A DNA stretch of 33,808 nucleotides from Candidatus Taylorbacteria bacterium RIFCSPLOWO2_02_FULL_44_35 (GTDB lineage: Bacteria > Patescibacteriota > Minisyncoccia > Phycocordibacterales > DSPV01): NCBI GenBank assembly GCA_001822695.1, contig MHSF01000026.1:1-33808 (forward strand), given 5' to 3'. Positions 2,518 to 25,721 of this stretch are shown here, one piece after another. The notes under the pieces were generated by a model. The model was not told where the DNA came from. It saw only the letters and a list, made by a program, of their open reading frames with translations, and ran no database searches. Numbering within the stretch: position 1 is the first letter of the stretch; the number at the start of each line of letters is the position of its first letter. Both the position numbers and the translations under genes were made by a program.

Positions 2518-3447
2518 ATGTTTTGGACCAAAATTAAAAGAGTAATCCGCTGGAGTTTCGCTAGTTTTTGGCGCAACGGTTTCGTGTCGCTGGCGGCGGT
2601 GGCGGTGATGACCGTGACTCTGTTTGTCATCGGTTCGTTAATTTTCACCGGCGCTTTATTGAGGACCTCCATTGAAGCGCTCAAAGACAAAGTGGATGTT
2701 AATGTTTATTTCGTCACTTCGGCGCCGACAGAAGAGATTTTGTCTTTGAAAAAATCACTGGAGGCCTTGCCGGAAGTGGCGAAGGTGGAATATATTTCCC
2801 GCGAGCAAGCGTTGGCGGATTTCAAAAATCGTCACCAGGACGACCAGTTGACTTTACAGTCACTGGGGGAATTGGGCGATAACCCGCTGGGCGCGGTTTT
2901 GAATATTAAAGCCAAAGATGCCACTAATTACGAAAGCATCGCCAAATTTTTGGACCAAGGTAGCCGATTAATTGGTGACGGCAAGATGTCGATTATTGAT
3001 AAGGTGAATTATTATCAGAACAAAGTTGCCATTGATAAATTAATCAGGGTGACTAATTCCGCTCAGACGCTAGGTTTATTTGTGATTTTGTTTTTCGCCG
3101 CCGTTTCCATACTTATCACTTACAATACTATCCGGTTGACGATTTTTATTTCCCGCGACGAAGTGTCGGTAATGCGGCTAATGGGCGCCAGTGGCCGCTA
3201 TATCAGCGCCCGGTTTCTTCTTCAAGCAGCCCTCTACGGCATCGCCGCCGCCGCCATCGCTTTGTTGGTTTTTTACCCGACGACTTATTGGCTCGGTCCC
3301 AAGACCGCCGATTTTTTCTTTGGCGTTAATGTTTTTCGTTATTACTTGGATAATTTTCCGCAAATCTTCCTGCTCATTTTTGGTTCCGGCATTGTCCTCG
3401 GCGTCGTTTCCAGTTTTCTGGCAGTGAGAAGATATTTGAATGCTTGA
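2518..3447 (+). CDS. ftsX: Cell-division ABC transporter permease-like protein FtsX
   Basis: N-terminal TM, FtsX extracellular domain (VDVNVYFV...LPEVAKVEYISREQAL), three C-terminal TM segments with RDEVSVMRLMGAS. Confidence 0.93.
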   Translation: MFWTKIKRVIRWSFASFWRNGFVSLAAVAVMTVTLFVIGSLIFTGALLRTSIEALKDKVDVNVYFVTSAPTEEILSLKKSLEALPEVAKVEYISREQALADFKNRHQDDQLTLQSLGELGDNPLGAVLNIKAKDATNYESIAKFLDQGSRLIGDGKMSIIDKVNYYQNKVAIDKLIRVTNSAQTLGLFVILFFAAVSILITYNTIRLTIFISRDEVSVMRLMGASGRYISARFLLQAALYGIAAAAIALLVFYPTTYWLGPKTADFFFGVNVFRYYLDNFPQIFLLIFGSGIVLGVVSSFLAVRRYLNA

Positions 3448-3878
3448 GTAATGAGTGGTATAGTGTCGTTGTGATAACCAACGAACAAAAAAACAAAATT
3501 GCGGAAATTGCCAAACGCCATAAACTTGCGTTGGTGGTGCTTTTCGGTTCGCAGGCGACCGGACACACTCACAGACGAAGCGATGTGGATATTGGTTATG
3601 TTGCTGATAAAGAGATTGATTATCGTGAGAATTATGAAATATCAATGGAAATGGCGCGAATTTTCAAAAATCCCGATGTGGAACTCGTGAATATTTATAA
3701 TGTTGCTCCCGATTTCAAAAAACAAATTGCCGATACCGGTATAGTTTTGTACGATGGGAACGAATCGGTTTTTGATTTATTTAAAATTCACGCCAATAGG
3801 ATTTACATGGAAACAAAATCATTAAGGGATTATAGATTAACTTACATCAAAAGTTTTTTACAAAGATATGCCCAATAG
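3444..3878 (+). CDS. MNT-type nucleotidyltransferase, HEPN/MNT module antitoxin candidate
   Basis: LFGSQATGHTHRRSDVDIGYV matches the GS-x(n)-DxD minimal nucleotidyltransferase motif. The listed start is TTG; GTG at 3471 is an alternative. Confidence 0.85.
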   Translation: MSNEWYSVVVITNEQKNKIAEIAKRHKLALVVLFGSQATGHTHRRSDVDIGYVADKEIDYRENYEISMEMARIFKNPDVELVNIYNVAPDFKKQIADTGIVLYDGNESVFDLFKIHANRIYMETKSLRDYRLTYIKSFLQRYAQ

Positions 3879-4305
3879 CAATGTGATAAAAAGCAAATTG
3901 GCAGCGATGAGTTCTTACATGGAGGAGCTGATGCCTTTTGTTGAAAAATATCGGCGAGGAGAAATGCCGCTTGATAGTTCCGAAGTACATATTATTGAAC
4001 GAATGTTCCAACTTTTAGCTGATGCGGCGATAGATATCAATACCCACATAATTACCCGTAATAGGTTGGAATCGCCCGATGATTACGAAGGGACTTTCCG
4101 TGTCTTGGGTAAAAGCCGAATAATTCCATTGGGTTTAGGTGAGCAGATTTCCAGCTCGGTTGGTTTACGCAACCGTATGGTTCATGGTTATGAAAAAGTG
4201 CAAAAGAAAAAAATGTTGGACGATATTTCAAACGGTATTGGCCAATATGTGGAGTATATGAAGTATATTATTGAGTATATAGAAAAACAACCACCGGAAA
4301 ATTAG
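3868..4305 (+). CDS. HEPN-domain (HepT/DUF86-like) toxin candidate
   Basis: LRNRMVHGY (Rx4H HEPN motif), all-alpha composition, 11-nt overlap with the MNT gene. Confidence 0.83.
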   Translation: MPNSNVIKSKLAAMSSYMEELMPFVEKYRRGEMPLDSSEVHIIERMFQLLADAAIDINTHIITRNRLESPDDYEGTFRVLGKSRIIPLGLGEQISSSVGLRNRMVHGYEKVQKKKMLDDISNGIGQYVEYMKYIIEYIEKQPPEN

Positions 4306-9990: not shown

Positions 9991-10084
9991 CTTATTTTCA
10001 TCTTCAAAAACCACGCCAAAAGTTGAGGAGTTTTGGCAACGAAACACTGAGGACGTCAGTCCGAATGTGTGGTAGGATTTGGAT

Positions 10085-10870
10085 ATGGAATGGGAAAAAA
10101 AATTTCTAAATAAAATCATTTGCGGTGATGTTGTAAAAACGATGGGGCAAATTCCAAACAATTTGGTTGATTTGGTGATTACTTCGCCACCTTATAACAT
10201 AAGAAATTCTACCGGCAACGGCTTAAAGAATGGCCGCGGTGGTAAATGGGCCAATGCGGGATTACAAAAAGGATATTCGCACTATGACGATTGCATGCCC
10301 CACGATAAATATGTGAAATGGCAAAGAGATTGCTTGAAAGAAATGATGAGAATTATTCCCGAGCACGGCGCGATTTTTTACAATCACAAATGGCGCGTGC
10401 AAGGTGGTTTATTACAGGACAGACAAGATATTGTAAGCGGTTTTCCAGTTCGTCAAATTATTATCTGGAAAAGAAAGGGTGGTCTCAATTTCAACCCCGG
10501 CTATTTTTTGCCGACTTACGAAGTAATTTATCTTATTGCTAAACCAGAATTTAAGCTTATTCCGAAAGCAAACGCCTACGGTGATATCTGGGAATTTACA
10601 CAAGAAATGAACAATGAACATCCGGCCGCTTTCCCGGTTGACTTAATTGACCGAATTGTTTCTGCCACAGACGCTAAAGTCATTTTGGATCCATTTATGG
10701 GTTCTGGCACAACAGCGATTTCCGCGCTAAATTTCAAGCGAGATTACATTGGAATTGATATTTCACCTGAATATTGTGAGATGGCAAGAAAGAGAATAAA
10801 AAATCATTCGCCCGGGAGCAATTTCTTTCAATTCCAATTACCACAAGAAAGATTATTCAAGACCCCATGA
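10085..10870 (+). CDS. Type II DNA methyltransferase, N4-cytosine/N6-adenine class
   Basis: VITSPPYNIRN (motif IV) and ILDPFMGSGTTAISA (motif I), beta-type order; ATG 10085 preferred over the TTG at 10079. Confidence 0.92.
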   Translation: MEWEKKFLNKIICGDVVKTMGQIPNNLVDLVITSPPYNIRNSTGNGLKNGRGGKWANAGLQKGYSHYDDCMPHDKYVKWQRDCLKEMMRIIPEHGAIFYNHKWRVQGGLLQDRQDIVSGFPVRQIIIWKRKGGLNFNPGYFLPTYEVIYLIAKPEFKLIPKANAYGDIWEFTQEMNNEHPAAFPVDLIDRIVSATDAKVILDPFMGSGTTAISALNFKRDYIGIDISPEYCEMARKRIKNHSPGSNFFQFQLPQERLFKTP

Positions 10871-11664
10871 AAAACAAACTGGCTATTTACACAAAACTAG
10901 CACTTATCGCAAAACTGAAAGAAATTTCAGCAATGGGTTTTGTCCCGAACGCGCGCCGGAAAAATTCTGGAGGGATTGGCAACACACTTGAAGACCTGCT
11001 TGGTATCAAAGAAAACAACCTACCGATACCGAATGCCGCGGAATGGGAATTAAAAGCTCAACGGCTTAACTCAACTTCGCTTACAACGCTTTTTCATGTT
11101 GAACCTTCGCCACGCGCTGTCCTTTTTGTACCACAAATATTTTTACCAGTTTATGGTTGGACACACGAAGAAGCGGGCAAGAAATATCCAAAGGGTGAAA
11201 TGAGTTTCCGGCAAACAATTCACGGAAAATCGCGAAGTGACAGGGGTTTCAAAATTGTAATTGATCGCAAGGAACGAAAAATCTTGATTTCATTTGACGC
11301 TGGAAGTGTCGACTCTAGACATAAGAAATGGCTTGAACTGGTCAAGAAGCACGTTGGGCTTGGCGAAGTTAATCCGCAACCATATTGGGGCTTTGATGAT
11401 TTAGAACATAAGGCCGGAACAAAACTTCTCAATGCTTTTTATGTTCAAGCGGAAGTTAAAAAGGAACGAGGGAAAGAATATTATCATTATACGAAAGTGA
11501 CGATGCTACAAAAATTCAGTTTTGAAGGATTTTTGAAAGCATTGGAGGAAGGTAAAATTCTAGTGGATTTCGATGCGCGCACTGGCCATAATCACGGCAC
11601 AAAATTTCGCATGAAGCAGGATTGTCTGCCGATGTTATACAGAGACAAACAAATAATTTTATAG
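10867..11664 (+). CDS. Type II restriction endonuclease, MvaI/BcnI-like
   Basis: GGIGNTLEDLLGIKENNLPIPNAAEWELKAQR resembles the MvaI/BcnI catalytic region (E...ExK); 4-nt overlap with the methylase. Confidence 0.8.
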   Translation: MKNKLAIYTKLALIAKLKEISAMGFVPNARRKNSGGIGNTLEDLLGIKENNLPIPNAAEWELKAQRLNSTSLTTLFHVEPSPRAVLFVPQIFLPVYGWTHEEAGKKYPKGEMSFRQTIHGKSRSDRGFKIVIDRKERKILISFDAGSVDSRHKKWLELVKKHVGLGEVNPQPYWGFDDLEHKAGTKLLNAFYVQAEVKKERGKEYYHYTKVTMLQKFSFEGFLKALEEGKILVDFDARTGHNHGTKFRMKQDCLPMLYRDKQIIL

Positions 11665-16168: not shown

Positions 16169-16579
16169 TTAGACCTGCCGAGAAAGTCGTTCTCTGATTT
16201 TTTCTACTAAATCTTCGATTGTATAGTTTGATTTCACTAAATAGTAAGCAGGTTCATCGTTAGTGATTGCCGCCATAATTTTGTCATCATCCGCACTAAG
16301 ATTTGTCAGTAGTATGATTGGAACTTTCTTCCCCCACTCATTGCCCTCTCGCAACTTTTTCATCATCGTTAAACCATCCATCTTGGGCATTATGATATCA
16401 AGTAAAATAATATCAGGGCGTTCGCGAAGCGCTGTCGCTAACCCCTCCTCACCATCCCTTGCTTCAAGAACACTAAAACCCTCTTTGACAAACTTGTCAT
16501 GAAGCACATCTCGTAGCGATTTTTCATCCTCAACCTCTTCAATCACCAGTATTTTTTTGTCTTTTAATTCGTCGGTCAT
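16169..16579 (-). CDS. Stand-alone response regulator receiver (REC) protein
   Basis: ILVIEEVEDEKSLRD, PDIILLDIIMPKMDGLTMM, VPIILLTNLSA, YYLVKSN. Confidence 0.93.
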   Translation of the reverse strand: MTDELKDKKILVIEEVEDEKSLRDVLHDKFVKEGFSVLEARDGEEGLATALRERPDIILLDIIMPKMDGLTMMKKLREGNEWGKKVPIILLTNLSADDDKIMAAITNDEPAYYLVKSNYTIEDLVEKIRERLSRQV

Positions 16580-16645: not shown

Positions 16646-16996
16646 TCAATCGGTGACATATTTTATATACTCAACTTGAATACGAGCAATCTCGTTTTCA
16701 TCAAGATGACCTATTTTCTCCTGCAAGAGGCTTATATCAGCAGCAAATGATTGGTAGAGAAGAACAAAAGAAATCGTAGTTAACCCGCTGTGCTTCGTTG
16801 GCAGTATTTCTATCACGTATTTTTGATGAGTTTTCTTTTGAACAGAGGTACACGGGGCAACAGTAACAGTTTCGCCTGTTACTTGTGTCACAATAACATG
16901 TGGCCGAATTCCTTTTTGTATATGCCCCACTGCATTCGCATTATCAATAAGCCACACATCTCCCTTTCGTATGTTTTTATGTTCTGTTTTTTGCAT
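16646..16996 (-). CDS. PemK/MazF-like toxin
   Basis: RKGDVWLIDNANAVGHIQKGIRPHVIVTQVTGETVTVAPCTS... Confidence 0.8.
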   Translation of the reverse strand: MQKTEHKNIRKGDVWLIDNANAVGHIQKGIRPHVIVTQVTGETVTVAPCTSVQKKTHQKYVIEILPTKHSGLTTISFVLLYQSFAADISLLQEKIGHLDENEIARIQVEYIKYVTD

Positions 16997-17187: not shown

Positions 17188-19062
17188 TTAATGAGCCGCT
17201 TGGTAACGCCTTTCCTCCTTTTTCATCCCACCCAGAGGAAGTGTAACAAAAAAAGTCGTACCTGGATTTTCCTTTGCCACGCCGTAGCCTTCGGCGGACT
17301 TCGTCTCGCCAGAGGCAGACTCCGTCCTGCCGACGGCGGAGGCGGGAGACTCAAACCATATTTTTCCGCCAGAATTTTCAACGATTGATTTGACAATGTA
17401 AAGACCTAAACCCGTTCCGTCGGTGTCTTTCTCTCTCACATTATCGGCTCGGAAGAACTTAGTGAATATCTTACCTTGCTGGTTTTTGGGGATGCCATAG
17501 CCCGTATCAGAAACTTTGATTTGAATGTTCTTTTTATCAAAAGAAATAACAACCTCAATCTTCCCACCTTGTGGCGTATATTCCACGGCGTTGGCTAGAA
17601 GATTTTGAAAGACCATACGGAGAAGCTTCGGGTCGGTCAAGAACGGTGGGATATCTTTACTGAAATTTTCTATAAGTACAAGCTTTTTCTTTTCAATTTT
17701 AGGTTTTTGTTCATTGAGCACGCTTCCAGCAAGTGCAACGACATCGGTTGGCTTTGGTTCCATCTTAAATGTCCCGAGCTCAAGACGAGAAACGTCCAAA
17801 AGAGTGTTGACAAGTTCGATCATTCGCTGATTGCCTTGATAGATTTCATCAAGATATTTCTTTTGCTTGGGAATAACCGTACCAACATCTCCCTTTAAAA
17901 TCATTTCTGTATACCAGCTGATGGTAGTCAGCGGAGTACGAAGCTGATGCGAGGCAAGAGAGACGAATTCGCTCTTGGTTTTGTCAATCTCTTTTTCTCT
18001 TGTAATATCTCTGAATACACTAATAGCGCCGATTGTTTGGCTTCCTATCTTGACTGGAGATACGGTAAATGCAACCGGAAACTTTGTCTTATCCTTCCGG
18101 GTATAAAAATAAGTTGCGGTGGTATTAGTGGCGTCTGTGATAGTAGTCTTTCTTTTGTGGAGGGCGAGGAAAAGCGGTCCCTCAGTTGGCGGTACTAGCT
18201 TGCCATTTTCAGTTGCGAGTGCAATTACCTCTGACCATATCTTACCAAGTACTTCTTGGCTACTCCAACCCGTAGCTACTTCTGCCGCTTGGTTTATAAA
18301 CCCCACTCTCATGTCCTGACCTGAGAACACTACCCCGTCGCCAATACTTACAAGCATAGCTTCGTTTTTTGCTTGTGCTTCGGCAATTCTATCTCGTTCT
18401 CTTTCCAAATCCTCCAAAAGATTGAAGGCTGCCTTGCGCATATTATTAAGCTCTTCGACCCGTACCGTTAGGGATTTAGTTTGTTCAGCAACATTTTCCT
18501 CCAATCTTTTTATATACTCGGACGAGTCACTCTCGGATTCTTTTTTCTCTTCTTTAGAGGAAGGCGCCGTTGTTTCAATGGGTGATGATTTTCCATTAAT
18601 TAATAACATACCAGTAGTCACATCAAAAAGAACCGACCGACCTACAACGCCACCGAGTTGTTCGTCTGTAATCTTGATGCCTAATTCCTGTAGGGTGTTT
18701 CGTATTGCTACAATATTTTCTTTTCCAATATCAGGTGTGTTTGGCATAACCTGTGCGCCACCCACAAGACGAGCAGTCAACGCAACCCCTCTGGCGCCCA
18801 ATTCCAGCATTTGTTTGATAAGCTCATGTATAGCATGATTGGCATACTTCAAGGCATCTGCGTCTTCGGCATTAATAGACGGTGAAGAAGGAAGCATGAC
18901 ATGAGCAATGCCGCCGATTTTTCTTTCCTCATCATACAGAATTACTGCCACGCAACTTCCCAATGTCAGACATTGCAAAAAGGCAGGGGTATTGATGGCC
19001 TTCACTTCGCCCGTGGCGACTTCGATAGTCCTGTTTTCTTTTGTTTCAGTAAGTGTATTCAT
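17188..19062 (-). CDS. CheD-PAS-histidine kinase fusion
   Basis: N-term LTLGSCVAVILYDEERKIGGIAHVMLP...ARLVGGAQVM...GRSVLFDVTTG (CheD); PAS region; SLASHQLRTPLTTISW (H box), NLLANAVEYTP (N box), DTGYGIP, GTGLGLYIVKSIVENSGG. Confidence 0.92.
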   Translation of the reverse strand: MNTLTETKENRTIEVATGEVKAINTPAFLQCLTLGSCVAVILYDEERKIGGIAHVMLPSSPSINAEDADALKYANHAIHELIKQMLELGARGVALTARLVGGAQVMPNTPDIGKENIVAIRNTLQELGIKITDEQLGGVVGRSVLFDVTTGMLLINGKSSPIETTAPSSKEEKKESESDSSEYIKRLEENVAEQTKSLTVRVEELNNMRKAAFNLLEDLERERDRIAEAQAKNEAMLVSIGDGVVFSGQDMRVGFINQAAEVATGWSSQEVLGKIWSEVIALATENGKLVPPTEGPLFLALHKRKTTITDATNTTATYFYTRKDKTKFPVAFTVSPVKIGSQTIGAISVFRDITREKEIDKTKSEFVSLASHQLRTPLTTISWYTEMILKGDVGTVIPKQKKYLDEIYQGNQRMIELVNTLLDVSRLELGTFKMEPKPTDVVALAGSVLNEQKPKIEKKKLVLIENFSKDIPPFLTDPKLLRMVFQNLLANAVEYTPQGGKIEVVISFDKKNIQIKVSDTGYGIPKNQQGKIFTKFFRADNVREKDTDGTGLGLYIVKSIVENSGGKIWFESPASAVGRTESASGETKSAEGYGVAKENPGTTFFVTLPLGGMKKEERRYQAAH

Positions 19063-20057
19063 ACCTTTTTGTCTGACGGACGCTGTTTCTCAAGTTCTTT
19101 TTTGAGCTCGACCATTTTAAGCTCTCGCCCCACAGTCGCTTTGTTAAATACTTCAAGTTGATGTATTTGCTCTTTGAGAAGATTTTCCGCCGCGGTAAGC
19201 TGCTGATTAGAGGCTCGAAGCTGTTGGGTGCTTGCGTTGAGCTGCTGGTTTGATGCGCGAATCTGCTGGTTAGAGGCTTTTAATTGCTGATTGGCAGCAT
19301 CAAGGTCTCGTGTCCGGTCACGCACTTTTTGTTCCAGCCCCGCGTAGGATTCTTTTAATTTGCCCGCCATTTCATTAAATAATTTCCCCAATGCCCCAAA
19401 CTCATCTTTGCTTTTTATTTCAAGTTTATAATCGAGATTCCCGCCGGCAATAGTTTTTGTTCCTTCGCTAAGTCTGCGCAACGAACCATTCATTGAGCGG
19501 CTTATTGAATACGACCAAATTGAAATTGCGCTAATGATAAATGCCAAAATAGCCATAACAAATTCAAACAAATATCCGGCTAAAATTAAACCTTTGCGGC
19601 TTAATTCAGATAAAACCAACATATTTGAAACACGCTCTTGAGTTTTCACCGAAAGCTGGTCTGTTAACCGCCCTATAATTGTTTCGCTCTTGCCTTGTTC
19701 AACAGCTCCAACAAGCTGGTCAAAAAGCGTCTTGGTGTCTAAGGAAACCTGGAGGGTATATTCAAATAATGCTTCTTCTTTGGGCGTGGTAAAAATAGGC
19801 TTGCCTTCGTTCAAATATGTTGATAAAGATTGGTACACAATATTCCACTGGGCTTTTGGCCGTTCAGATGAATGTGAAATATACTCATGCTGAAGCGATA
19901 TTAGATGGAACGAATTCTCTGTAATTTTTTGCGCCAGTTGCTGTTTTTGCTGCAATCTTTGCAAATTAAAAACAAAAAGAAGCGTCGCGCCAATAAAAAT
20001 TATCGCGAGGATAATCAGGATATTAGAACTTAATCTAAGTTTTGTGCTTACTTTCAT
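19059..20057 (-). CDS. Two-TM sensor protein with HAMP domain and Gln-rich coiled coil, no kinase domain
   Basis: N-terminal TM, ~130-aa extracytoplasmic region, second TM, HAMP, heptads AANQQLKASNQQIRASNQQLNASTQQLRASNQQLTAA; ATGA overlap with the kinase. Confidence 0.88.
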   Translation of the reverse strand: MKVSTKLRLSSNILIILAIIFIGATLLFVFNLQRLQQKQQLAQKITENSFHLISLQHEYISHSSERPKAQWNIVYQSLSTYLNEGKPIFTTPKEEALFEYTLQVSLDTKTLFDQLVGAVEQGKSETIIGRLTDQLSVKTQERVSNMLVLSELSRKGLILAGYLFEFVMAILAFIISAISIWSYSISRSMNGSLRRLSEGTKTIAGGNLDYKLEIKSKDEFGALGKLFNEMAGKLKESYAGLEQKVRDRTRDLDAANQQLKASNQQIRASNQQLNASTQQLRASNQQLTAAENLLKEQIHQLEVFNKATVGRELKMVELKKELEKQRPSDKKV

Positions 20058-20058
20058 A

Positions 20059-21114
20059 TTATTTGATTATTGTAACTGCTTCGGGTTTTACTTTTTGGAG
20101 AGCGTCCAAATAAATATAATCTAGATAATTCGGAACCTCCGTCTTGTTAGTCAGTTTATTTTGAATAGCCCAGCGGGCCTCATCTTCAATTACTTGAATT
20201 ATGGTTTGATCCATAAAAAGCCGTAATTGAAAATCGTTCCAAACCGAAGAAACGAAATTCTTGTCTATGCCCAATCTTTGAGAAACAATAGCAACAGCTT
20301 GGTCTCTGTTGTTTTGGATAAAATCCTCTGCTTGTTTAATTGCTTCCAAAAACCTGATTATTGCTTCGGGATGATTTTGAAGAAACTGCTGGTTAGTAAC
20401 AAAATAAAAATCTTCTCGGAAAATTTTGTTATTGGGAAAAGTAATACTCTTGGCTCCTAATGATTTTTGAGCATTATAAATGTTCGGCTGCCAGGTAGAA
20501 ATCGCATCTACGGCCCCGGCAGCTATGTTTTGAGTCAATTGACCAGTTGGCAAGTCTACTATTTCCACATCAGAAAACTGAATGTTGTTAGTATCCAAAA
20601 ACAAACCGAGAAAGTAGTGGCCGGTAGAGCCTTTGGTCACGCCAAACAAACCGAGAAAGTAGTGGCCGGTAGAGCCTTTGGTCACGCCAATCTTCTTGCC
20701 GCGCAAATCTCCTGGCTTGGTTATGCCTCGATCGGTTCGAGCAAGCACAAAAACATCATTATAAGAAGAAACCATCCCCGCGGTAATCGCAAAGTCACTG
20801 CGCGTAAAACTATTAAACATAATCGGCGTTTGCGCCACAGTCACCATATCCAAACCGCCTTTGTCTAACATGGATGTAAAAGCGGCTCGCCCGGAATCAA
20901 ATTCTTTTATGGTTACTTCTGTGCCGTTTTCCTGAAAATAGCCCTTGTTTTCGGCCACCCACACCAATGAGGGTAAAAGGCTTTTCTCCACACCGACAGT
21001 AATTTTCTCAATCGGGCCGGTGTATTTTGGAATTGACTTAGATTGCCACCACACGATACCGACAACAACGATAATAATTACTGCAACAACTAATATAATA
21101 ATTTTTTTATTCAT
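20059..21114 (-). CDS. Membrane-anchored NMT1/THI5/SsuA-like substrate-binding protein
   Basis: TM anchor MNKKIIILVVAVIIIVVVGIVWW; SLLPSLVWVAENKGYFQENGTEVTIKEFDSGRAAFTSML; LRGKKIGVTKGSTGHYFLG; no permease or ATPase adjacent. Listed ORF extends to 21141. Confidence 0.88.
   Translation of the reverse strand: MNKKIIILVVAVIIIVVVGIVWWQSKSIPKYTGPIEKITVGVEKSLLPSLVWVAENKGYFQENGTEVTIKEFDSGRAAFTSMLDKGGLDMVTVAQTPIMFNSFTRSDFAITAGMVSSYNDVFVLARTDRGITKPGDLRGKKIGVTKGSTGHYFLGLFGVTKGSTGHYFLGLFLDTNNIQFSDVEIVDLPTGQLTQNIAAGAVDAISTWQPNIYNAQKSLGAKSITFPNNKIFREDFYFVTNQQFLQNHPEAIIRFLEAIKQAEDFIQNNRDQAVAIVSQRLGIDKNFVSSVWNDFQLRLFMDQTIIQVIEDEARWAIQNKLTNKTEVPNYLDYIYLDALQKVKPEAVTIIK
20599..20688 (-). repeat. Perfect 45-bp tandem duplication, in frame
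   Basis: GVTKGSTGHYFLGLF encoded twice in a row; identical nucleotide units with 45-nt period. Confidence 0.95.
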
Positions 21115-21118
21115 ATAA

Positions 21119-21169
21119 TTATTTTTTCTTAAGCTCCTCAATTTCTTTTTTGAGTTCCACCATTTTTAA
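21119..21169 (-). pseudogene. Remnant of a sensor coiled-coil C-terminus
   Basis: Frame reads LKMVELKKEIEELKKK*, preceded by a stop; resembles LKMVELKKELEKQ of the HAMP protein, also at nucleotide level (about 19089-19118). Confidence 0.55.
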
Positions 21170-21180
21170 CTATGTTTATT

Positions 21181-21579
21181 TCAACCTTTAGTACCTTGTG
21201 TTTCCAATATCTCTTCTATTTTCTTAACGACATCATGAAGCTTCCAATCTGATTTGATCAAGTAGTGCATTGGCTTATGCGTTACTATATCCTCTACCAG
21301 CTGTTCTTTGGTCGCGCTTAGGTTCGTGAGAATAATAACGGGAACTTTTTCTCCCCACGCGTCTTCACGAATATGCTTGAGAGCAGTCATACCGTCCATT
21401 TCCGGCATCACAAGGTCGAGCAAGATAAGGTCGGGGTGCTTTCCGAGTGCAATCTCTACTCCTTCTTTGCCGTTTTTTGCCTCAAGGGGGTTAAACTTTT
21501 TGAGGCGAAGTATATCCGCAATCGCTTCGCGCAAACTCTTTTCATCCTCTGCTATCAGTATTGTTTTTTGTGTGTTCAT
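21181..21579 (-). CDS. Stand-alone response regulator receiver (REC) protein
   Basis: MNTQKTILIAEDEKSLREA, PDLILLDLVMPEMDGMTAL, VPVIILTNLSA, YLIKSD; internal ATG at 21579 preferred. Confidence 0.93.
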   Translation of the reverse strand: MNTQKTILIAEDEKSLREAIADILRLKKFNPLEAKNGKEGVEIALGKHPDLILLDLVMPEMDGMTALKHIREDAWGEKVPVIILTNLSATKEQLVEDIVTHKPMHYLIKSDWKLHDVVKKIEEILETQGTKG

Positions 21580-21601
21580 AATGTTTTTTAGATTAATTAA
21601 T

Positions 21602-22882
21602 TTATAAATCTGCTTTCTCTCGACGAAATGAGAAAGACACCTTTTTACCAAGTAACTTCTCGTACTCGGATACGAGGGTGGCGATAATCTTTGATGGACG
21701 CTCTGTCAAAGCAAGCACTCGACCAGTTGCTTTATCAATTTTGAGTCCGTCAATATTTGCCGCAATATCAAGCGCGTCATCGCCAACACGCTCACGCATT
21801 TCCATAATAGTGTCGCTTAAAATTTCATAGAAAGTACGCTCTCCATGAGGAATATCGGAATAATCAAATGGAGCGAACCTCACACTACGCCGACGCTTGA
21901 TGAGTGCGCGACCTAACAAGACCATAAGAATACCTACAAGGAGAGTTATGCCTCCATATCGAAGGAAATCACTTTGGAAAAGTCCTAAAAGTTTTCTCTC
22001 TACGACAAAAGGAAACTCCGTGGTAGCGGGAGCAACTTGGTCTTGGTAGACAATGGAGCTTTTGGCGATATATAGTCCAGGAATCGTCTCAAAAGGAATC
22101 TGGATTGTCTTGACAAATGTAGCGGTTGTTTCGACCGCTACTGTTTCTGTAGATGTATATATTGTCTTGCCCGAAAGGTCAGTAATTTCGTACGTTATGG
22201 TAACGTCCACCCTGTTTCTATTGCCAAAGTTGAGTAGCTTGACTGAAAGTGGAAGAAACTCGCCTGGTGCGACTTTTGAGGCTAGCCCAGCGCCAGTGGT
22301 TTGGATTTGAGGTATGAGACTGATGTCAAAAATATTTTGTTCTCCTTGTGGCAGGTCGGGTAGCGGTGTTATGGACGATGCCTTTGGGGGCGACCCGACG
22401 GTTGCAACTACTCGGACTTGAGGTCTGGATTCTAATGTACTCTTGTTTTGCGCATTCAAAATAAAAGATCGCGGTCCGACAGAAATAATAGCTTCTCCAG
22501 CCACTTTAGCCAGGAAGGTAACGGTGCCAAAGGCCTCCGGCACAGAGAATCCTTTGGGGAAACCCGCGGTCTTTATAAACTGACCGCTTTTGTTGTCAAT
22601 AAGGTCGTAGCCCGGCTGTGGCACGGCAAGCCAACTTGAAGCAAGTGCAAACGAGGTTACTTCCAGAATGTCAGGAGGAAAACCGAGTGTAAACCGCACT
22701 GTATAATTTTTCTCACCGGAAGGGTCAATCACGACCGGCATCGTAAAAGTTTGGCCTTTCTCAACCGTAATAACTTTGCTTTGAAAAATAAACGAACTGG
22801 CCTCTGCTCCTAAGGGTATAACCATAAATCCAAGCAAGATGGCGAATGTGGCAAAAAATGATTTTGGGGTTAAGAATTTCAT
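21602..22882 (-). CDS. Cohesin-like domain protein with C-terminal TM and cytoplasmic tail
   Basis: Signal peptide, FIFQSKVITVEKGQTFTMPVVIDPSGEKNYTVRFTLGFPPDILEVTSF...GTVTFLAKVAGEAIISV (cohesin-type beta fold), TM YGGITLLVGILMVLLGRALI. Confidence 0.75.
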   Translation of the reverse strand: MKFLTPKSFFATFAILLGFMVIPLGAEASSFIFQSKVITVEKGQTFTMPVVIDPSGEKNYTVRFTLGFPPDILEVTSFALASSWLAVPQPGYDLIDNKSGQFIKTAGFPKGFSVPEAFGTVTFLAKVAGEAIISVGPRSFILNAQNKSTLESRPQVRVVATVGSPPKASSITPLPDLPQGEQNIFDISLIPQIQTTGAGLASKVAPGEFLPLSVKLLNFGNRNRVDVTITYEITDLSGKTIYTSTETVAVETTATFVKTIQIPFETIPGLYIAKSSIVYQDQVAPATTEFPFVVERKLLGLFQSDFLRYGGITLLVGILMVLLGRALIKRRRSVRFAPFDYSDIPHGERTFYEILSDTIMEMRERVGDDALDIAANIDGLKIDKATGRVLALTERPSKIIATLVSEYEKLLGKKVSFSFRREKADL

Positions 22883-22884
22883 AG

Positions 22885-23595
22885 TTATATTTGATATGTT
22901 ATGCCCCAATAGACCATGAGAGCATTGAAGTTAAGAACATCCACACTAAATGTACTTCCCACGTTAGCGAGATTCTCCGCTCTACCCCAATTAACCATCA
23001 GAGAATTAAAATCAAGAATGTTGATGACGCCGTCTTTTTGGATATCTATCAGTTTTGCTTGCGCCGACATTGCAAGGTCTTCCACAGGCAGAGTTGGTAT
23101 TGGGGTCGGAGTTTGAATAATTGTGCCACCGCTACCTCCTCCACCCCCTCCACCGCCAGATGACACAACAGCAGGAGTTGTGGCTTGTCGCCAATCAGTT
23201 CGGACATCGCAGTAGTTTGGACAGTCAAAGGTAATTGTCCCAATTAATGTGCCAGTTGCGGTACCGGAAAATCTTCCAGTAGAAGGGTTGATGGAAACAT
23301 TGTTAAAATCAATCCAGCCTAGTTTCTCTCCCCACGCAGAGCCGGAAAGATTACCCGCGCCGTCACTTAAAACCCCTCCTTGAGCCGGATTAAATTTTAT
23401 CCAGCCGTAATTGGCCGACCACGCGTATCCAGAAAGCGCACCATCATCCACTACCACATTTTCAAAGTTAATATAGCCAGCATTATTACTCCAAGCGTAT
23501 TTGTATGGACTTGTAATCGTACCGGCCGAAACAAACGACAAAGGCAAAAACAGGGTGAGGATAGACATAAAAATTGTTAATCTTTGCTTTAGCAT
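22885..23595 (-). CDS. Secreted protein with WS.N.GWI.F-type repeats, Gly/Pro linker and dockerin-like C-terminus
   Basis: YAWSNNAGYINF, YAWSANYGWIKF, SAWGEKLGWIDF; SSGGGGGGGGSGG; LIDIQKDGVINILDFNSLMVNWG...VDVLNFNALMVYWG. Confidence 0.8.
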   Translation of the reverse strand: MLKQRLTIFMSILTLFLPLSFVSAGTITSPYKYAWSNNAGYINFENVVVDDGALSGYAWSANYGWIKFNPAQGGVLSDGAGNLSGSAWGEKLGWIDFNNVSINPSTGRFSGTATGTLIGTITFDCPNYCDVRTDWRQATTPAVVSSGGGGGGGGSGGTIIQTPTPIPTLPVEDLAMSAQAKLIDIQKDGVINILDFNSLMVNWGRAENLANVGSTFSVDVLNFNALMVYWGITYQI

Positions 23596-23603
23596 AAAAA
23601 TAA

Positions 23604-25721
23604 TTATGGGGTTTCAGTCGGAGGCAGAACAGCCTCTGGTTGAGATTCTGTGGTATTGACTGCTTCTATTGATGCTGGAGTCGGCTCATCCACGATCGGA
23701 GATATTGCCTCTGGTAATATTGGTGGAATGTCTGTTGGGGTTTCTGCTAGAGTTGGTTCATTTGTTGGGGAAGTAATTATTTCGGAAGTGGTGGTCGAAG
23801 TTTCGTTAGGCGTAGTTGGTGTTGGTAATTGCTCGGGTTCAGGAGATGTGTGAATTGGTGTATTTATTGCTGGAGTGACCCCGTTCTTTTGTAGAAGTAT
23901 GTCTACTTGATCGCCATTTACACAGACTTCGCTCCCGTCAGATTTTTTAATACAAAGTTCTTCAGTATGGAATTTTTTAGTAAATATTTCTTCAAAATAT
24001 CCACGGATTGCTGTTATGCGTGCAACAACAAGATCGGTGAGAAACTTTATTCCAGTAGAAATTTTGTCCGCAATGATAAGAATTGGATTACGACCAACTT
24101 CGGTTTGAATAGCGGTAATGTCTTCTAGAGAGGTGTTATTTTCATTAAAAACAAAATGCTTCACAAAAACTAAAACCATATCGACACCTTCACCATCGTA
24201 AGACGACAACGCTTGTCCTACTACTATTCCTCCATCCATAGCTCTCATAGCGACACCTGGTATTGAAGAAGGCGAGAGATAATCACCCGGCACAATAGCG
24301 CCATTTTCTGTTACAACTTTCACCGGCACTCTTCCTGATAAAGCTACGGGCAAAGCTTTTACTCCCTCTTTTTCCACGCCTCCAATAAGTATCCCCGGTC
24401 TAGTAGCGACGATGCCCAGTACATGTTGGTCGTAAGTATTTATACTCTTTCGTATTCCAGTTTTGAGACTTTGATCAAGTGAGACAACATCTCCTGCTTC
24501 TACACTCTCATCATTTGTGGTATATATTTCGGCCAAGTCAGCGCCGGTATCAATGACCGTTGCAAACATTTCATAAAGGCGAATATCAGTGTCTCCTGTT
24601 GCTGTTGAGGCACAGAGTGAATATGACTGCGATGACGCACCCGCGTCCACCTCAATGGCCGCGATTTCAAAATCGCCGATAACTGTACCAGAATTAGACG
24701 TGATGGTAATTATATTTGTTGCAAGAGTGCTACCCGTACAAGTTGCATCATCTTCAATCGAAAATACAAAACTTTGATCCGTGTTATTACTGCTCAAAAT
24801 TTCTGCTTTTCCACGCACATATACATCGCCAGTTGCCGTTGATGGTGTAACTGACACCGAGGTAACGGTCACTTGGCTTGAGCCGATATTTGTAAGTGCT
24901 TCGGTTGTATCATACGAGGCGACGTGTTGAATATCTCCACCTGGTGGCGTAATACAGTTTGACCATGCACCATTTTCAAAACAGCGGAACTTGCTCGTAT
25001 TTGAGTTATAGTATATTGCTCCATTGGTTCCAGTCGGATCACCGGATGAACTTTTTATATCCATTACCAACAAATCGGGTGTGGCTGAACCGCTACCACC
25101 GGCTCCAATCTGCACATTTCCCGTTGTTTCAGTACCAGCAATCTGCAAACCAATATTGCCTGTTCCGGTAATTCCTCCTCCTAATGCTAACGAACCTAAT
25201 GTTCCAACACTGGTCAATGACGAATCAACCACACCTGAAGCCAGTGAAGTTCCTGTTAATGTTCCGGCTGACGCTGTGACAGTGATGTTCGCTGTTCCGT
25301 CAAAAGATACTCCATTGATGGTCCGTGCTGTTTGAAATGCGCTTGCAGTCCCTGCATTTCCAGATATTGTTGTTTGGTCTCCTGTATTCGTACCGGAAGA
25401 ATTGCCAAGCACTATGAGCTGTGCATCAGTGACGTATCTTTTATTTAAGCTATCCAGAATATCAGCGGTAGAAAAGGAAATATTTCCAGTCAAGGCAAAG
25501 CCGTTGATGGTTGTAGTATTGGGGACTGAAGTGTAACCAAGAGCATCCTGTTTACTATTAAAAATACCCCAATCACCTGTTGTCAAAAGTCCACGATTGA
25601 GCAAAGAAGCCGATGGAATATTGAAAGAATGGATGTTGCCAATTGAGGAAATTGCGAAATCGGTACCAGTACTGCTAGCGACTAATGTCTGGGTAGAACC
25701 AGACTGGCCGTTTAAACTCAA
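23604..25721 (-). CDS. Large surface/tail-fibre-like protein; listed ORF may be the body of a longer interrupted gene
   Basis: Repetitive beta-rich NTGDQTTISGNAGTASAFQTARTINGVSFDGTANITV; DLAEIYTTNDESVEAGDVVSLD...GIVATRPG; Pro/Thr-rich C-terminus. Confidence 0.75.
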   Translation of the reverse strand: MSLNGQSGSTQTLVASSTGTDFAISSIGNIHSFNIPSASLLNRGLLTTGDWGIFNSKQDALGYTSVPNTTTINGFALTGNISFSTADILDSLNKRYVTDAQLIVLGNSSGTNTGDQTTISGNAGTASAFQTARTINGVSFDGTANITVTASAGTLTGTSLASGVVDSSLTSVGTLGSLALGGGITGTGNIGLQIAGTETTGNVQIGAGGSGSATPDLLVMDIKSSSGDPTGTNGAIYYNSNTSKFRCFENGAWSNCITPPGGDIQHVASYDTTEALTNIGSSQVTVTSVSVTPSTATGDVYVRGKAEILSSNNTDQSFVFSIEDDATCTGSTLATNIITITSNSGTVIGDFEIAAIEVDAGASSQSYSLCASTATGDTDIRLYEMFATVIDTGADLAEIYTTNDESVEAGDVVSLDQSLKTGIRKSINTYDQHVLGIVATRPGILIGGVEKEGVKALPVALSGRVPVKVVTENGAIVPGDYLSPSSIPGVAMRAMDGGIVVGQALSSYDGEGVDMVLVFVKHFVFNENNTSLEDITAIQTEVGRNPILIIADKISTGIKFLTDLVVARITAIRGYFEEIFTKKFHTEELCIKKSDGSEVCVNGDQVDILLQKNGVTPAINTPIHTSPEPEQLPTPTTPNETSTTTSEIITSPTNEPTLAETPTDIPPILPEAISPIVDEPTPASIEAVNTTESQPEAVLPPTETP

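Follow-up and report, generated by a model that had tools for sequence, protein, structure and literature searches.

The 33,808-nt contig MHSF01000026.1 of Candidatus Taylorbacteria bacterium RIFCSPLOWO2_02_FULL_44_35 (Patescibacteriota), analysed at its full length and called the window here, carries three minus-strand genes that encode a substrate-binding protein (SBP), a membrane receptor with a HAMP domain and a soluble histidine kinase that begins with a CheD domain. We propose, as a somewhat probable reading of the sequences, that these proteins form a two-component sensor split over three polypeptides, with the CheD domain physically linking the receptor and the kinase. The host is a metagenome-assembled genome (MAG) of 583,801 bases in 32 contigs, estimated to be 91.56% complete, and the window is its contig 26. 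All three open reading frames are intact (SBP, 20059-21114; HAMP protein, 19059-20057; kinase, 17188-19062). They are coupled as tightly as an earlier sequence-only reading of this DNA had stated: a single nucleotide separates the SBP stop codon from the HAMP-protein start codon (TAATATG), and the HAMP-protein stop and kinase start codons overlap as ATGA.

The five domain families that this reading had expected were all matched in a Pfam search: CheD (4e-25), HisKA (2e-17) and HATPase_c (1e-27) in the kinase, together with PAS_9 (8e-10), HAMP (8e-14) in the receptor and NMT1 (2e-23) in the SBP. The kinase has the order CheD-coil-PAS-HisKA-HATPase, and the phospho-acceptor histidine of its SLASHQLRTP motif, His372, is invariant in the kinase alignment. 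Its CheD domain (aa 1-158; 18589-19062, minus strand) scores 88.5 bits against a Pfam cut-off of 25 (PF03975), and an AlphaFold2 model of the domain (pLDDT 89) matches Thermotoga maritima CheD (2f9z_C; E 3e-17, root-mean-square deviation 1.8 Å). The catalytic residues Cys37 and His54, equivalent to Cys27 and His44 of T. maritima CheD and already noticed in the GSC- and H-containing motifs, are invariant across 79 aligned CheDs. The coil that follows CheD (18373-18534, minus strand) aligns with the segment following HAMP in related kinases. By this alignment, CheD therefore stands where the transmembrane (TM) and HAMP segments stand in those kinases.

The HAMP protein has a TM-four-helix-bundle-TM-HAMP-coiled-coil topology; that it has the layout of a receptor but no kinase had been read from its sequence. 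HAMP is its sole Pfam domain over the cut-off, and there is no signalling domain of the methyl-accepting chemotaxis protein (MCP) type. Its structural model, built from three sequences (pLDDT 75) and confident for the sensor part only, resembles the four-helix-bundle sensors of chemoreceptors and kinases, and in particular LytS of the XylFII-LytS complex (5xsj_L; TM-score 0.89 on the target, root-mean-square deviation 1.5 Å). A continuous helix predicted by the model from aa 217 to 324 contains a feature that the sequence-only reading had overlooked: five tandem A-x-x-Q-Q-x-x-A heptads at aa 254-289 (19191-19298, minus strand), which run AANQQLK ASNQQIR ASNQQLN ASTQQLR ASNQQLT A along the signalling helix. 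CheD recognizes the consensus A/S-x-x-Q-Q-x-x-A/S in its receptors. The five consecutive heptads match what we take to be this recognition consensus and are candidate CheD sites. Both CheD-less homologues of the HAMP protein lack the heptad array.

We then surveyed genomes for arrays of at least three tandem heptads, using a codon pattern (KCN) that misses AGY serines. Such arrays occurred in 9 of 384 genomes of the host's phylum, namely in 8 of the 13 that encode CheD (the host among these) and in 1 of the 371 that do not (Fisher P-value 1e-12, a figure confounded by MCP content). The inspected arrays of the CheD-bearing genomes lie in MCPs near CheD and, in the host, in the HAMP protein, while the lone array in a CheD-less genome is a low-complexity PAGQQQ repeat; among the 371 genomes without CheD, no HAMP protein and no kinase contains one. 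Across 29 CheD-bearing genomes of many phyla, the sole match came from a Sedimentisphaerales MAG, where the gene immediately following CheD encodes a receiver-coil-PAS-HisKA_3 kinase with 13 sites. When 395 Planctomycetota genomes were searched, this MAG included, each of the three coiled-coil arrays belonged to a histidine kinase whose gene comes immediately after a standalone CheD gene. The two further cases (genomes G511 and G629) are a PAS-HisKA_3 kinase truncated where its contig stops and a PAS-HATPase kinase. The other 17 planctomycete matches were judged from the matched sequences to be low-complexity or short DNA repeats. When plasmids were searched with the array, the only matches were an IS66 transposase and a PAS protein of Spirosoma, which has NQE heptads and no CheD beside it. 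An interpretation of the array as a generic coil is not favoured by the survey, whose even sampling covers the two phyla.

The composition of the heptads points in the same direction. Among 44 heptads from four proteins, Q4 and Q5 are invariant, A1 and L6 are nearly so and positions 2 and 7 vary; the pattern that picked these sites itself requires Q-Q, and the in-register heptads printed without this filter were also nearly all Q-Q. The constant positions show many synonymous codon changes. Because L6 can belong to a coiled-coil core and Q-Q cannot in either plausible register, the constancy of Q-Q points to recognition by a partner. The planctomycete gene pairs (L150/L196, 1350-3686; L225, 1214-3277; L226, 5408-9073) contain 9-13 heptads in one register and are possibly a wider, undescribed form of the window's system. 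They resemble it in combining CheD, a kinase other than CheA and a tandem heptad coil, and differ in that CheD is a separate gene, the array lies inside the kinase, the kinase is of the HisKA_3 type in two of three cases and no SBP or HAMP receptor adjoins.

A tree of 79 CheDs links the two sets of proteins weakly. It places the window CheD together with the three planctomycete CheDs that adjoin kinases (SH-aLRT 89; UFBoot 84 and SH-aLRT 85 in a thinned tree), and the che-operon CheDs of the host's phylum lie elsewhere; an origin from those operons is not favoured by the tree.

The division of a receptor-kinase over several polypeptides, suspected from the window alone, is well supported by two relatives. 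In genome G268 (L048), the gene directly after that of an SBP (38% identity) encodes one 648-aa protein that is homologous to the HAMP protein (56% identity) as well as to the PAS-kinase. In G419 (L056), four consecutive genes encode an SBP from a different family, a split HAMP receptor that is again homologous, a kinase and a response regulator. Since the one-piece and the split homologues both sit with an SBP, the parts belong together, and by this comparison the host's order has several arrangements, of which the split form is one. The CheD fold is present, the neighbours recur together in relatives and no MCP was found, the three points on which the sequence-only reading had staked itself.

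A receiver-only response regulator, here RR1 (21181-21582, minus strand; Response_reg 4e-20), lies just upstream of the SBP gene and had been missed; it is the likely phosphorylation target. In the relative G402, the closest relative of RR1 adjoins the closest relative of the kinase, and RR1 and the kinase are therefore probably an old pair. The SBP itself is a membrane-anchored protein of the NMT1/SsuA type (SsuA_fam 3e-37, below that model's cut-off). As had been noted, no ABC permease or ATPase gene adjoins it. Both accompany a second NMT1 SBP that the genome encodes at another place; a role of the window SBP as an importer component was rejected on these grounds.

Known systems contain most of these parts in other combinations. 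In XylFII-LytS of Clostridium beijerinckii, TorT-TorS and LuxP-LuxQ, a membrane sensor domain passes the signal of a binding protein on to a kinase, as we propose here (PMC6321045). In those systems the sensor and kinase are one polypeptide, with neither CheD nor a QQ array, whereas the window's system is split and has both. As in XylFII-LytS, the SBP gene of the window is coupled to a four-helix-bundle membrane sensor without a transporter partner, and the coupling recurs in G268 and G419. The GlnH-GlnX-PknG system of Corynebacterium glutamicum matches the window in distributing a binding protein, a four-helix-bundle membrane protein and a soluble kinase over three adjacent genes, but PknG is a Ser/Thr kinase and no HAMP domain, CheD or response regulator is described there (PMC9769921). 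In the CheC/CheD/receptor adaptation of Bacillus subtilis and T. maritima, CheD recognizes glutamine sites in the helices of receptors and has an effect on the activity of the kinase, and it shares its fold and catalytic Cys/His with the window CheD (PMC3513319). Unlike that system, the window has CheD fused to a HisKA kinase and a HAMP receptor without the MCP signalling domain.

In the reading that combines these observations, the SBP would play the part of XylFII and signal the presence of a ligand outside the cell to the HAMP protein, whose four-helix-bundle sensor would correspond to LytS. HAMP would relay the signal into the long helix that carries the five heptad sites. The CheD domain of the kinase would recognize these sites and dock on them in a manner that depends on the receptor's conformation, perhaps also deamidating Gln to Glu within the array. 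The docking of the CheD-kinase would then control the phosphorylation of RR1. We favour docking as the more important activity for three reasons: B. subtilis CheD acts mainly by binding to receptors, which matters more there than catalysis (PMC3513319); the search for CheR found none; and CheD takes the place of TM-HAMP.

A conventional chemotaxis role was rejected: MCPsignal, CheW, CheR and CheC are all unmatched in the 91.6%-complete host genome, which upholds across the genome what had been seen in the window for MCP, CheW and CheR; CheB, also named as missing, was not searched for. No other CheD was found in the host genome. Since neither CheR nor CheC was found, deamidation would not be reversible or gated as it is in chemotaxis, and reversible adaptation is not supported. 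The window CheD also has Val-Met in place of the CheC-interface pair Met101-Phe102, which is confined to species with CheC according to Yuan et al. (PMC3513319); the loss of this pair agrees with the missing CheC. The suggestion of a role in chemotaxis adaptation is not supported in the form first given, in view of these replaced residues, the missing partners and the precedence of binding over catalysis in B. subtilis. The presence of CheD within the kinase stood, but as a rarity: the 12 other CheDs of the phylum sample are standalone, none occurs in the sampled genomes of the host's own order, and the 80 nearest GTDB CheDs among the matches listed, from a search with a three-row alignment, are standalone as well. 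Neither set contains a second CheD-kinase fusion, and a scan of genome contigs with the full fused protein found no relative.

Several of our results weigh against the proposed sensor. The fusion is known, within the genomes searched, from one MAG only. A tree that places the window CheD with the che-operon CheDs of its phylum is not rejected (AU P-value 0.14). The third residue of the catalytic triad, Thr21, is replaced by Cys31, although this place is variable (Thr in 51 and Ser in 17 of the 79 CheDs) and the third triad residue is diverse across the wider enzyme family (PMC7022378). The Val at the Met101 place may weaken catalysis: in B. subtilis CheD, M101A and M101E had little activity on McpA, and mutation of Met101 abolished McpA deamidation (PMC3513319). 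An exact 45-bp in-frame tandem duplication in the SBP gene (20599-20688, minus strand; GVTKGSTGHYFLGLF twice), present as a single copy in the G268 homologue, may harm the SBP or may be an assembly artefact. Finally, the array test was conceived after seeing the window's sequence and then run on independent genomes, and the even sampling behind it comprises two phyla only (384 and 395 genomes).

These points bear differently on four other explanations. CheD could act as a deamidase only, carrying out a one-time Gln-to-Glu maturation or one-way tuning, with the fusion keeping the enzyme near its substrate and the receptor coupled to the kinase through coiled coils or a tail motif. The invariant catalytic Cys and His, an array that fits the deamidation consensus and the missing CheR all agree with such a role, as do split receptors that end in the same tail motif and stand beside CheD-less kinases. 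Published CheD, however, mainly binds (PMC3513319), the Met101 and Thr21 places are altered in the window, and a one-time deamidase need not replace the TM-HAMP of the kinase. We consider this explanation unlikely, though it deserves to be taken seriously.

The tail motif in question, FNKATVGRELKMVELKKE, closes the HAMP protein (19062-19148, minus strand); in L047, L050, L056 and L057, sensor proteins encoded upstream of kinases have the same ending. A recurrent form, approximately VGRELKMVELKKEI, ends separate PAS, Cache-HAMP or four-helix-bundle-HAMP sensors just upstream of kinases in L047, L050, L052, L055, L056, L057 and the window. It may serve for docking, or sensors may be swapped by recombination at it. 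Between RR1 and the SBP gene lies a 16-codon relic of such a tail (LKMVELKKEIEELKKK-stop; 21119-21169, minus strand). It agrees at 27 of 30 nt with the DNA that encodes the tail in the HAMP gene, a match that none of 500 shuffles equalled. This identity suggests that the SBP and HAMP genes arrived as a cassette by exchange at the motif.

The flanking of the cassette by this relic also fits an explanation in which CheD is itself a relic or an accidental fusion without a role, attached to an ordinary soluble PAS kinase of RR1, with the SBP and HAMP genes inserted by tail-motif exchange and the heptads being a coil lengthened by 21-bp repeats. The fusion occurs in a single MAG, the closest relatives of the kinase lack CheD, and repeat-lengthened coils do exist, as in the NQE heptads of the CheD-less Spirosoma PAS protein. 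What makes such an account distinctly improbable is that the CheD frame is intact with its catalytic residues kept, that the array is absent from every HAMP and kinase protein of the CheD-less phylum genomes, that CheD stands beside the array kinases in three of three planctomycetes and that Q-Q is constant despite synonymous codon changes.

There is very little chance, in our estimation, that CheD still works for a chemotaxis system whose genes lie in the unrecovered part of the genome, with the kinase as an auxiliary substitute for CheA. About 8% of the genome is missing, and other CheDs of the phylum do belong to che operons that also contain CheC and MCP genes, some directly before a kinase gene (L021, L023); against this stand the four unmatched chemotaxis families, the lost CheC-interface residues and the lack of CheD in sampled genomes of the same order. 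The joining of CheD and kinase by misassembly is scarcely credible even for a draft MAG with such local oddities as the SBP duplication and a GC-rich (69%) insertion of about 26 codons near the kinase C-terminus (17269-17346, minus strand; absent from relatives and containing a CGCCGAAGGC-like inverted repeat), because the frame is continuous, the GC contents of the CheD and kinase parts are alike (44% and 43%), the linker holds a native post-HAMP segment and the ATGA overlap joins the kinase to a HAMP gene with a matching array.

Other genes were observed near CheD and around the three genes of the window. In the che operons L018, L021 and L023, 3 of the 12 other CheD loci of the phylum, the gene immediately after CheD encodes a histidine kinase other than CheA, with two response regulators in L023. 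In a Nitrospinota locus (L124, 2782-6850), the gene directly after CheD encodes a PAS protein whose tail is VGREL-like (KATIQRELRMKELKDRL), and HAMP-GGDEF and HAMP-PAS proteins follow; the stretch examined contains no MCP and no QQ array. Within the window, a second single-receiver response regulator, RR2 (16169-16579, minus strand; Response_reg 2e-19), is of uncertain membership in the system. Upstream of RR1 (21602-25721, minus strand), three proteins without a Pfam or NCBIfam match are of a secreted or surface type by sequence, and the one of 426 aa has relatives that are also near sensor kinases in G419 (L050) and G429 (L081). The window further contains an MNT/HepT-like toxin-antitoxin pair (3444-4305, plus strand), an MvaI/BcnI-type restriction endonuclease with its N4/N6 methyltransferase beside cell-wall genes (10079-11664, plus strand) and a PemK/MazF-like toxin gene (16646-16996, minus strand) with no antitoxin gene seen adjoining.

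To our knowledge, CheD has been described in chemotaxis only, and we found no description in the open-licence literature of CheD-kinase fusions, of its pairing with ordinary histidine kinases or of CheD outside chemotaxis. With slightly less than even confidence, we extend our proposal to a class of non-chemotaxis two-component systems in at least two phyla, in which a neighbouring or fused CheD would recognize tandem Q-Q heptads of a coiled-coil signalling helix and couple or covalently tune the kinase; the window would be its extreme form, with CheD replacing TM-HAMP as the plug between receptor and kinase. In chemotaxis, the binding role of CheD has been hard to separate from deamidation. 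With the fused CheD and its likely target repeated in the partner receptor, the window offers a minimal setting in which to study the effect that CheD has on a kinase by binding alone, and the planctomycete gene pairs provide independent material for the same question. If the proposal is true, CheD would serve two-component signalling in general, as a module for coupling or tuning, and CheD targets could be predicted in genomes from tandem QQ heptads.

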